Positions 15,235 to 19,016 of a stretch of 32,397 nucleotides of DNA are shown here, in pieces (the first letter of the stretch is position 1; every line of letters starts with the position of its first letter). The DNA comes from Pseudomonadales bacterium (GTDB taxonomy: Bacteria > Pseudomonadota > Gammaproteobacteria > Pseudomonadales > Azotimanducaceae). The notes beneath the pieces were generated by a model. The model was not told the DNA's origin and ran no database searches. It was given only the letters and a program-made list of their open reading frames with translations. The stretch is taken from contig JADHNT010000021.1 of assembly GCA_016779385.1 (NCBI GenBank), forward strand, positions 1-32,397, in the 5' to 3' direction. The position numbers and the translations under genes are program-made.

Positions 15235-16299
15235 GTGACCGACAACCTGCCGTCCCTCCTCGAAGGCGTTCGCATCCTCGATCTGTCCGCCGTCATTTCC
15301 GGTCCCCTAGCTACGGGGCTCATGGCCGATCAGGGCGCGGAGGTTTGGAAGGTGGAAAGCCTCGCGGGCGGGGATATGACCCGCGCCCTAGGGGCCCAGC
15401 ACCGGGGGCTCACGGCCATGTTCGCCACGGTGAATCGCAACAAAAAGAGCATAGCGCTCGATCTGAAGGACCCTCGGGGGCGGGACGCCCTGCTTGCCTT
15501 GGCGGCCCAGTGTGATGTGTTCGTGGAGAACTTCCGTCCTGGCGCAGCGGCTCGCCTCGGCCTCGACTATGAGGCCATTCAGGCCGTGCGCCCGGAGGTG
15601 ATTTACCTGTCCATTTCGGGCTTTGGCCCCGAGGGCCCATATACCAAGCGCCGCGTTTACGATCCCGTGATTCAGGCCGTATCGGGGCTCGCCGAGGCCC
15701 AGGGGGGTGCGGAGCCGAGCCTCATGCGCACCCTCGTATGTGACAAGGTAACGGCCCTTACCGCGGCCCAGGCCTTAAGCGCAGCGCTCTTTGCCCGGGC
15801 CCAGGGGAAGGGCGGGCGGCGCCTGTCCCTGTCCATGCTCGACGCGGCGCTCTACTTCAACTGGTCCGATCTGTTCTGGAACCACACTTTCCTGAGCCCG
15901 GAGGCCGAGGCCCACCCCGAGCTCGCCGACACCTTCGGGATTTCACGCACCGCCGATGGGCACCTCTGCGCCATTGTCGGCGCCGGCGTGGATTTTTCGG
16001 ATTTCACCACGGAAGGGGCCATGGCAGCCCTTGATGAGTACGACATCCCCTGTGCACCAGCCCTGCCGCGATCCGCCGTGCCTGACGACCCCCAGGTGCA
16101 GGCGTCGGAAAGCCTGGTGCCTCACGAGCACCCGGTGGCGGGCCCCATGCGTCAGCCCCGGCCTCCGGTACGGGATGGGGCGCCCTTGCGCCTTGCGCCA
16201 GCGCCGCTCCTGGGCGCCGATACGGAAGCGGTGCTGGCCGAAGCCGGCCTCAGCGCCGATGCGATTGCGGCCCTTCGCGCTGCAGGGGTCGCACGATGA
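15235..16299 (+). CDS. Family III CoA-transferase (CaiB/BaiF)
   Basis: This 354-residue family III CoA-transferase moves CoA between acyl-CoA and free acids through an aspartyl-CoA anhydride. The likely catalytic aspartate is D170 in RTLVCDKVTALTAAQ, at the position of D169 in formyl-CoA transferase. N-terminal hallmarks are VRILDLSAVISGPLAT, ADQGAEVWKVE and NRNKKSIALDLKDPRGR; YDPVIQAVSGL precedes the active site. It is somewhat shorter than the common 390-430 residues, trimmed in the C-terminal part. AAAGGAG lies upstream of the GTG start, 12 bp after the TrmB-like gene. Its stop overlaps the LOG-like gene by ATGA. Alpha-methylacyl-CoA racemase is an alternative activity of the same family. 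Confidence 0.92.
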   Translation: MTDNLPSLLEGVRILDLSAVISGPLATGLMADQGAEVWKVESLAGGDMTRALGAQHRGLTAMFATVNRNKKSIALDLKDPRGRDALLALAAQCDVFVENFRPGAAARLGLDYEAIQAVRPEVIYLSISGFGPEGPYTKRRVYDPVIQAVSGLAEAQGGAEPSLMRTLVCDKVTALTAAQALSAALFARAQGKGGRRLSLSMLDAALYFNWSDLFWNHTFLSPEAEAHPELADTFGISRTADGHLCAIVGAGVDFSDFTTEGAMAALDEYDIPCAPALPRSAVPDDPQVQASESLVPHEHPVAGPMRQPRPPVRDGAPLRLAPAPLLGADTEAVLAEAGLSADAIAALRAAGVAR

Positions 16300-16868
16300 G
16301 TATCAAAAGCGTCGCCGTGTACTGCGGCTTTCGCCTGGGCGCCTCCCCGGTCTACGGCGCGGCTGCCGATGCCCTCGGGGCCGGCCTCGCCGGGGCGGGC
16401 GTCACCCTCGTTTATGGCGGGGGCGGGCAGGGCATGATGCGCCGGGTGGCGGATGCAGCCCTGGACGCCGGCGGCGCCGTGGTGGGGGTGATCCCCGAGG
16501 ATCTGTTGACGCGGGAACAGGCGCACAGCGGCCTTCAAATCGGTGGCGCCCTTTCCCGCCTTGAGGTGGTGGCCGATATGCACGAACGCAAAGCGCGCAT
16601 GCTGGACCTCGCCGATGCCGTCACCGTGCTCCCTGGGGGCTTCGGCACCTTAGACGAGCTCTTCGAGGTGCTCACCTGGGCCCAGCTGGGCATCCACGCC
16701 AAGCCCTGTGGCATGATTAACGCCAGGGGATATTTTGATCACCTGCTCGCCTTTCTCGATCACGCAGAAGGGCAGGGTTATGTGCAGCCCGCCGATCGTG
16801 CTCGCATCACGGTGGCGCCCAGCGCCCCGGCGCTGCTGGCGGCCTGGGCCCTGGGAGAAGCGCCATGA
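16296..16868 (+). CDS. LOG family (TIGR00730-type) protein
   Basis: This 190-residue Rossmann-like protein has the LOG hallmark PGGFGTLDE at 113-121 and the preceding MHERKARM (95-102) that supplies catalytic Arg and substrate contacts, plus the nucleotide-loop VYGGGGQGMM at 39-48. Characterised family members are phosphoribohydrolases cleaving nucleoside 5'-monophosphates, including cytokinin ribotides. Older 'lysine decarboxylase' annotations of the family are misleading. It overlaps genes on both sides by 4 nt (ATGA), so it is embedded in the acyl-CoA operon. Nothing in the sequence explains that placement; it might handle a nucleotide by-product or be a passenger. Confidence 0.9.
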   Translation: MSIKSVAVYCGFRLGASPVYGAAADALGAGLAGAGVTLVYGGGGQGMMRRVADAALDAGGAVVGVIPEDLLTREQAHSGLQIGGALSRLEVVADMHERKARMLDLADAVTVLPGGFGTLDELFEVLTWAQLGIHAKPCGMINARGYFDHLLAFLDHAEGQGYVQPADRARITVAPSAPALLAAWALGEAP

Positions 16869-17254
16869 GTGAAGCGAACACCGTAGTGAAAGCATTCATG
16901 GAGGCCTTCAACGCCATGGACATCGACGCCATCGTCGGCGCCTTCACGGACGATGCGGCATACCACAACATGCCCGGCCCCCCGGTGTCTGGACGCTCGG
17001 CTATCGAGGCCGTCATCCGCGGCTACCTGGGCCTTGCTTCGGAAATGGATTGGAAGATTGCCTACCAGGCGGAGGTGGCCCCAGGGGTGGTCTTAAACGA
17101 GCGCCTCGATCGCTTCAAGCTGGCCAAGGGCTGGCTCGAACTGCCGGTTATGGGGGCCTTCGAGGTGGTGGACGGGAAGATCGCCTGCTGGCGGGACTAC
17201 TTCGATATGGCGGATTTTCAACGCCAGCTGGCGGCCCACCAGGGCGAGGGTTAG
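16865..17254 (+). CDS. Limonene-1,2-epoxide hydrolase-like protein with intact active site
   Basis: This 129-residue SnoaL/NTF2-like cone-barrel protein matches the limonene-1,2-epoxide hydrolase family rather than a generic SnoaL. The Rhodococcus enzyme uses an Asp-Arg-Asp set with Tyr and Asn holding the water. All five have counterparts here: Y33 and N35 (AAYHNMPGPP), R80 and D82 (LNERLDRF) and D111 (CWRDYFD). The expected activity is one-step hydration of an epoxide to a diol. It overlaps the LOG-like stop by ATGA and precedes a crotonase by about 36 bp. The sequence does not say which epoxide; a terpenoid or sterol-like substrate is inferred from the family and neighbours. Confidence 0.85.
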   Translation: MSEANTVVKAFMEAFNAMDIDAIVGAFTDDAAYHNMPGPPVSGRSAIEAVIRGYLGLASEMDWKIAYQAEVAPGVVLNERLDRFKLAKGWLELPVMGAFEVVDGKIACWRDYFDMADFQRQLAAHQGEG

Positions 17255-18106: not shown

Positions 18107-18149
18107 CTTTCCCCGGCAGCCCCCGCTGCCCAGCAAGGAGTCAAGCACT

Positions 18150-19016
18150 ATGAGCATTTCCTTCGACGGTCGTGTTGCCATCGTTACCGGCGCGGGGGGT
18201 GGCCTCGGCCGCTGCCACGCCCTTGATCTGGCCGCCCGGGGCGCCAAGGTGGTGGTGAACGATCTCGGCGGCGCGATGGACGGCACCGGCGGTTCCTCCG
18301 CCGCCGCGGAAGCCGTGGTTGCGGAAATCAAGGCCGCGGGCGGGGAAGCCATCGCCAACGGCGGCAGCGTGTCCGATCCCGCTGGCGCCCAGTCCATGGT
18401 CGATGACGCGATGAAGGCCTGGGGCCGGGTGGATATCCTCATCAATAACGCTGGCATCCTGCGGGATAAGACCTTTACGAAGGTCACCATCGAAGACTTC
18501 CAGGCCGTGGTGGACGTGCACCTCATGGGCGCCATGATGGTCACGAAGGCCGTGTGGCCCATCATGAAGGCGCAGAACTTCGGCCGCATTGTCATGACCA
18601 CCTCCCCCTCCGGCCTCTTCGGTAACTTTGGGCAGACCAACTACGGCGCTGCCAAGCTGGGCCTCGTGGGCTTCATGAACACCCTGAAAATTGAGGGGGC
18701 GAAAAACAATATCCACACCAACGCCATCGCCCCCGTTGCGTTGACGCGGATGACGGAAAACCTCATCCCCGAGGAAGCGGGCAAGAACCTTGGCCCCGAG
18801 CTCATCACCCCGGCGGTGACCTTCCTCTGCAGCGACGACGCCCCGAACGGCGTGGTGGTGCAGGCTGCCGGGGGGAATTTCTCCGTGGCCGCCATCGTGG
18901 AGAACACCGGGGCCAGCCTTGGCCCCGACGCCAAGGCGGAGGATGTGGCCGCGGCTTGGTCCCAGGTCACGGACCTCACCGGGGCGAAGCAGCGCAACAT
19001 GCTGCAGCTCGGCTAG
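18150..19016 (+). CDS. HSD17B4/MFE-2-like (3R)-hydroxyacyl-CoA dehydrogenase, SDR family
   Basis: This 288-residue SDR resembles the dehydrogenase unit of peroxisomal multifunctional enzyme 2. It has TGAGGGLG at 13-20, the NDLGGAMDGTGGSS cofactor-specificity segment (38-50, aspartate D38 for NAD), NNAGILRDKTF from 99, and catalytic Y165/K169 in GNFGQTNYGAAKLG. The family oxidises (3R)-hydroxyacyl-CoA to 3-ketoacyl-CoA, and several members act on branched or sterol side-chain CoA esters. An upstream in-frame ATG at 18069 lies inside the crotonase gene; AAGGAG at 18135-18140 supports ATG 18150 instead. With the crotonase 43 bp upstream it would form two successive beta-oxidation steps. Confidence 0.93.
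   Translation: MSISFDGRVAIVTGAGGGLGRCHALDLAARGAKVVVNDLGGAMDGTGGSSAAAEAVVAEIKAAGGEAIANGGSVSDPAGAQSMVDDAMKAWGRVDILINNAGILRDKTFTKVTIEDFQAVVDVHLMGAMMVTKAVWPIMKAQNFGRIVMTTSPSGLFGNFGQTNYGAAKLGLVGFMNTLKIEGAKNNIHTNAIAPVALTRMTENLIPEEAGKNLGPELITPAVTFLCSDDAPNGVVVQAAGGNFSVAAIVENTGASLGPDAKAEDVAAAWSQVTDLTGAKQRNMLQLG

Follow-up and report, generated by a model that had tools for sequence, protein, structure and literature searches.

A limonene-epoxide-hydrolase-like protein and a LOG protein in a likely eight-gene acyl-CoA unit that may descend from an acyl-CoA carboxylase locus of Azotimanducaceae

What do a limonene-epoxide-hydrolase-like protein (LEH) and a LOG protein do among genes of acyl-CoA metabolism? 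The question is raised by a stretch of 32,397 nucleotides (nt) from a Pseudomonadales bacterium of the family Azotimanducaceae (GCA_016779385.1, contig JADHNT010000021.1), hereafter called the window, which corresponds to contig C21, or its first 32,397 bases, of genome G000 (2.42 Mb, 90.6% complete). On one strand, the window encodes a CaiB/BaiF CoA-transferase (CaiB), the LOG protein, LEH, a crotonase (ECH) and a short-chain dehydrogenase of the MFE-2 type (SDR), which the original prediction, made from the sequence alone, had read as a five-gene acyl-CoA operon for a terpenoid- or sterol-like substrate or an epoxy-CoA route. What most LEH-family proteins act on in nature, and what purpose LOG proteins serve in bacteria, are open questions on which this locus bears. 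Our best explanation, to which we assign a probability of about one half, is that the genes belong to an eight-gene unit for the catabolism of a CoA-activated acid, and that this unit would have descended from a family-wide biotin-dependent acyl-CoA carboxylase locus that also encodes LEH, a crotonase and a dehydrogenase of the MFE-2 type.

The five central genes were found on the forward strand in the predicted order, in agreement with the open reading frames (ORFs) and the family matches: CaiB (15235..16299; GTG start), LOG (16296..16868; ATG start), LEH (16865..17254; ATG start), ECH (17285..18106; ATG start) and SDR (18150..19016; the ORF is open from 18069, and translation probably begins at the ATG at 18150). 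The predicted 4-nt overlaps among the first three genes are present at both junctions, CaiB/LOG and LOG/LEH, each time as ATGA, and gaps of 30 and 43 nt separate LEH from ECH and ECH from SDR. The size of five genes did not hold, since MT14 (14233..15222, +) ends 12 nt before CaiB and two further genes follow SDR closely. These are o61 (19029..19214, +), a conserved 61-amino-acid ORF with homologues in relatives and no Pfam match, after 12 nt, and MT19 (19236..19871, +; Methyltransf_24) after another 21 nt. The likely unit is MT14-CaiB-LOG-LEH-ECH-SDR-o61-MT19 (14233-19871), with MT14 and MT19 as its ends, and MT19 also marks the start of a conserved downstream flank. Gaps between genes inside the unit do not exceed 43 nt in the window and 46 nt across the genus.

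In each of the four other genomes of the genus (G001-G004) these genes recur with their order unchanged, which places the order beyond chance. The locus is complete in G001 and G003; the contig of G002 begins inside CaiB, and that of G004 ends inside ECH, with SDR on another contig. Apart from these two contig ends the spacing recurs as well. Across the genus, identity to the window is 80-99% for the five central proteins and 67-84% for MT14.

In other genera of the family, the locus reads PurC, h151 (a domain without a Pfam match), LEH, biotin carboxylase (BC), BCCP, ECH, carboxyltransferase (CT), MFE-2-type SDR, MT19 and a shared glycosyltransferase (GT) block. Its flanks are those of the window, with PurC (SAICAR synthetase; 10585..11535, +) upstream and MT19/h430/GT downstream, and its LEH, ECH and SDR are related to those of the window at 45-82% identity. 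Unlike this acyl-CoA carboxylase cluster, the CT of which is PCC-beta-like, the locus of the window's genus contains neither BC nor BCCP nor CT; CaiB and LOG are located between h151 and LEH instead. The compared regions are not a random sample, because they were chosen by close LEH and ECH matches or by a strong LEH match. When loci were instead chosen by their CT only, ECH was found in the fetched 1.5-kb flanks of 22 of the best 30 CT loci and an MFE-2-type SDR in those of 18. Members are missing in places, namely BC in L121, L125 and L127 and ECH in L127. In L126 (genome G050, ~4598-5139, reverse strand) the LEH gene is broken, and its end pieces persist in different frames.

The left end of the comparison depends on MT14, in which a TrmB-like S-adenosylmethionine-dependent methyltransferase domain precedes a C-terminal h151 domain. 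By hhalign, the h151 family aligns to residues ~220-310 of MT14 with a probability of 97.3% and an E-value of 2e-11. The tail of MT14 is thus homologous to h151, and the h151-LEH pair of the relatives therefore corresponds to MT14(h151)-CaiB-LOG-LEH in the window. A sequence search for further h151 relatives returned one match, at E 1. Beyond the genus, only the h151 part of MT14 was matched in the compared loci; the joined form was seen at 14233-15222 of the window. Elsewhere h151 and LEH themselves form one uninterrupted ORF in six of 11 loci (L182, L187, L196, L197, L198 and L230; 5673-6440 in L196) and two ORFs in the other five. The model of the fused h151-LEH protein is confident (mean predicted local distance difference test, pLDDT, 91.5), and its fold matches are all LEH structures among the best 50 of 1361.

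A genome-wide comparison extends the difference beyond the locus. Outside the genus, 56 genomes of the family were searched for CT, and 53 gave a match at E≤1e-60, paralogs of ~40% identity included. With the same PCC-type query, no match at this threshold was obtained in G000, G001, G002 and G004 and one weak match (3.9e-64) in G003; the genome-wide search did not include BC and BCCP. On these counts, this carboxylase seems to have been lost in the genus. A variant of the locus was found in a genome of another genus (G008; L251 4081-11377, reverse strand), which reads h151-LOG-BC-BCCP-NnrU-CT-MFE-2 hydratase 2-MT19. Neither LEH nor ECH nor SDR was matched on that contig, and the place of SDR is taken by an MFE-2 hydratase-2/MaoC protein, which likewise belongs to a step of beta-oxidation. 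The series of carboxylase form, G008 form and CaiB-LOG form provides co-conserved partners and a testable metabolic setting for LEH and possibly for LOG.

LEH matches Pfam PF07858 with 89.9 bits (cut-off 24). The five active-site residues of the original prediction, Y33, N35, R80, D82 and D111, are at the expected positions and align with those of solved LEHs, best with 5AIH/5AII (89 bits). All five are invariant in 11 of 11 aligned sequences, comprising that of the window and those of 10 relatives, including one from the same genus. We take these residues to be the counterparts of the Asp-Arg-Asp triad and the water-positioning Tyr/Asn pair of the Rhodococcus enzyme. The fold family and the five residues are shared with the LEHs of Rhodococcus (1NWW), Mycobacterium MB2760 (2BNG; Rv2740 in M. 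tuberculosis) and hot-spring metagenomes (5AIF/5AIH/5AII). Unlike those proteins, the LEH of the window, the activity of which is predicted, is encoded in a CoA-ester operon, coupled to LOG. A passage in PMC7429986 describes for LEHs an Asp-Arg-Asp triad, a one-step mechanism and two more residues that place the water.

The same protein also scores above the cut-off of SnoaL_2 and weakly matches ketosteroid-isomerase families, although its best scores remain those to LEH. It may consequently be asked whether it acts in vivo as a dehydratase, isomerase or CoA-ester binding protein of the SnoaL/NTF2 type that keeps the LEH residues for such chemistry. That its partners are CoA enzymes, that no epoxidase adjoins it and that its partner domain h151 is without known function would fit this view. 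The invariance of the five hydrolase residues and their alignment with solved LEHs argue for the hydrolase, and we consider a role of the SnoaL/NTF2 type possible, if on balance unlikely. As a side observation, a contig labelled Klebsiella pneumoniae (L183, CAMAVY010000210.1) agrees in LEH sequence and position with C210 of G030, which belongs to the family of the window, and is probably mislabelled.

CaiB matches CoA_transf_3 (PF02515) with 266.8 bits (cut-off 23.3). It has the N-terminal two thirds in common with class III CoA-transferases such as formyl-CoA transferase and succinate-hydroxymethylglutarate CoA-transferase, as well as Asp170, which is invariant in eight of eight aligned rows and presumably equivalent to the catalytic Asp of formyl-CoA transferase. 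It differs from these enzymes in belonging to a short subfamily in which ~40 residues of the small domain are absent, so that a complete small domain was not found. An assembly artefact was considered for the short form and ruled out, as the same gap of ~40 residues recurs in 12 other family loci (L066-L077, 44-49% identity); it is filled in 13 longer relatives (L078-L090).

ECH, a member of the crotonase superfamily, matches ECH_1 with 130.7 bits and the PRK07509 family NF005699 with 325.3 bits (cut-off 249). In the alignment with AUH (1HZD), Gln128 replaces the first Glu and the second is kept as Glu148; we take the two aligned residues of 1HZD to be its catalytic pair. The two Glu residues expected of an enoyl-CoA hydratase (crotonase) are therefore not both present in ECH. 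Asp156 is located eight residues past Glu148, where AUH has a Gly, and the Glu148/Asp156 pattern is presumably the one found in dienoyl-CoA isomerase. SDR matches adh_short with 148.9 bits and contains a catalytic-type triad of Ser152, Tyr165 and Lys169. Its best solved relatives are the (3R)-hydroxyacyl-CoA dehydrogenases of MFE-2, the peroxisomal multifunctional enzyme (2ET6, 3OML, 1GZ6); SDR matches their dehydrogenase domain, with an E-value of 2e-125 to 2ET6, and keeps the Ser/Tyr/Lys residues. In contrast to MFE-2, it stands alone, without the hydratase-2 domain, a protein of which type occupies this place in G008. SDR is 75% like its counterpart in a Candidatus Azophilus genome (L196; Candidatus Azotimanducaceae), compared to 46-63% in five genomes labelled Halieaceae (L186, L206, L208, L211 and L213), 59% in L204 and 48% in L180.

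Taken as one pathway of CoA-activated acid catabolism, the unit would work as follows. CaiB would transfer CoA onto an acid, where the relatives carboxylate an acyl-CoA. ECH would shift a double bond, as an isomerase rather than a plain hydratase, and SDR would oxidize a 3-hydroxyacyl-CoA. LEH would use the one-step Asp-Arg-Asp mechanism to hydrolyse an epoxide that is carried by the same acyl chain or derives from it, with the source of the epoxide outside the unit. LOG would release the base and ribose 5-phosphate from an adenine nucleotide 5'-monophosphate, as a co-inherited accessory for salvage or signalling.

Several points weigh against this explanation. Among the unit genes, Pfam revealed no acyl-CoA synthetase, acyl-CoA dehydrogenase, thiolase or epoxide-forming enzyme. 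The CaiB model, built from eight rows, is of low confidence (mean pLDDT 64) and cannot be used to judge the trimmed small domain. Furthermore, the LEH of the window and the other LEHs of the locus do not form one group in the LEH tree, which requires three label changes, at least two of them forced by starred branches, in an alignment of 124 columns with many forks open. The LEH of the window may hence be a replacement rather than an ortholog. Eleven cytochrome P450 matches elsewhere in the 2.4-Mb genome, which looks like many for such a size, make a source of the epoxide possible, though one not linked to the unit.

The P450 matches could also be counted in favor of a degradation operon for terpenoids or sterols, in which LEH would open the epoxide of an isoprenoid, with the shortening of the side chain left to the other enzymes. 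The joint occurrence of LEH, the MFE-2-type SDR and the crotonase is in line with this proposal. So is the region downstream of the PurC-h151-LEH block in two other Pseudomonadales loci, L196 (7336-10743) and L223 (9426-12680), where genes for MaoC, FAA hydrolase, acetaldehyde dehydrogenase and an HMGL-type aldolase resemble a meta-cleavage route (by Pfam in L196; those of L223 were matched by homology to L196). This extension is, however, missing from the window, and no ring-degradation gene was found among the annotated window proteins (~4.8-24 kb; no genome-wide search for them was made). Additionally, the lack of a CT match at E≤1e-60 in four of the five genus genomes would speak against an Atu/geranyl-CoA-type terpene route in the genus, although a more distant CT of the MCC/GCC type could lie below the threshold of the PCC-type query. 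Terpenoid or sterol degradation is thus unlikely in our assessment. Of the original reading, an acyl-CoA operon in which the active site of the LEH type is complete is supported, and the terpenoid- or sterol-like substrate has gained no specific support. In searches of the openly licensed PubMed Central (PMC) literature, no title or abstract described this combination of genes. For a marine Halieaceae isolate, PMC6440738 reports another epoxide route, the coenzyme M epoxide-carboxylase system; 'epoxide hydrolase' and 'limonene' have 0 mentions there.

LOG matches TIGR00730 with 170.1 bits (cut-off 96.35) and Pfam Lysine_decarbox with 135.2 bits. The intact motif PGGFGTLDE fits PGGxGTxxE and is shared, like the TIGR00730 match, with the LONELY GUY cytokinin-nucleotide phosphoribohydrolases (5ZBJ, 2A33, 1T35). 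It differs from them in falling below the cut-off of the cytokinin-specific equivalog NF058542 (114 versus 300 bits) and in being embedded in an acyl-CoA unit. According to the abstract of PMC11925245, what cytokinin-producing enzymes do in bacteria is almost completely unknown. The suggested check of neighborhood conservation placed LOG in this position in all five genus genomes and, at this locus beyond the genus, in G008 alone. The remark that LOG has no obvious job there still applies biochemically. In the fetched flanks of LEH loci (best 80 of 542 confirmed LEH matches), LOG was found in four, all of this genus. A tree of 65 LOGs tentatively places the G008 protein as sister to those of the genus (92/89, not starred; long branches meet there), whereas the tree of flanking proteins does not place G008 beside the window's genus. 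On the evidence of these sequences, LOG may have occupied the slot before the genera parted and then been lost elsewhere, or it may have been transferred.

Across the family, LOG was detected at E≤1e-25 in 64 of 206 genomes. Its upstream neighbors vary, with a clpP-like gene in genus g24, recognized by eye from the protein ends, and an SDR-type gene in g21 as well as in some of the g37 genomes. CaiB lies directly before LOG (gap ≤35 nt, same strand) in all seven LOG-bearing genomes of g32 and in four of 13 of g37, that is, in 11 other genomes of two genera. These adjacencies make it conceivable that CaiB and LOG form a functional pair serving one process and that the epoxide hydrolase is incidental. 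They amount, however, to 11 of 69 LOG loci outside the genus (61 in one set; none in eight further loci), and elsewhere LOG follows clpP-like or SDR genes. The CaiBs of g32 and g37 are 76-77% alike and only 30-32% like the CaiB of the window, so the pairing arose about twice. As CaiB genes are common, on the order of 1% of genes by a rough guess from first-look counts, two independent adjacencies among 17 LOG-bearing genera could be due to chance and are weak evidence of a functional link; we hold such a pair to be quite unlikely. LOG might otherwise be a working part of acyl-CoA metabolism, disposing of or signalling through an adenine nucleotide that is connected with the turnover of CoA esters. 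This would explain its position between CaiB and LEH in the window, its place in G008 with h151 before and biotin carboxylase after it, and its occurrence behind a distantly related CaiB in two other genera. On the sequence data at hand, we regard such a role as decidedly improbable.

Upstream of the unit, the window form carries genes for a beta-lactamase-fold protein (PF00144; 11551..12624, -), perhaps an esterase, and for a divergent LysR-type regulator (12651..13664, -), possibly that of the unit, followed by a 115-amino-acid ORF. The LysR and PF00144 genes, both assigned by Pfam, are in place in the three genus genomes with contigs that reach them (the window, G003 and G004) and are not found in the regions of other genera. 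A consensus scan of the window revealed no sigma-70-like promoter, which is weak evidence at 67% G+C. A terminator scanner, applied to the window alone, returned nine sites compared to 6.3 in shuffled sequences, so that single weak sites mean little. Between the 115-amino-acid ORF and the unit, the scanner returned a terminator-like hairpin (14155..14182, +) with a 10-bp stem and a run of seven T, and the same stem and T-run were read from the sequence after this ORF in four of four genus genomes whose contigs cover the site, the window included. Further upstream of LEH, a block of CrtC-lipocalin, cystathionine-synthase-like and PurC genes was observed in the window (7342-11535) and in the Pseudomonadales loci L176, L187, L196, L197, L207 and L223.

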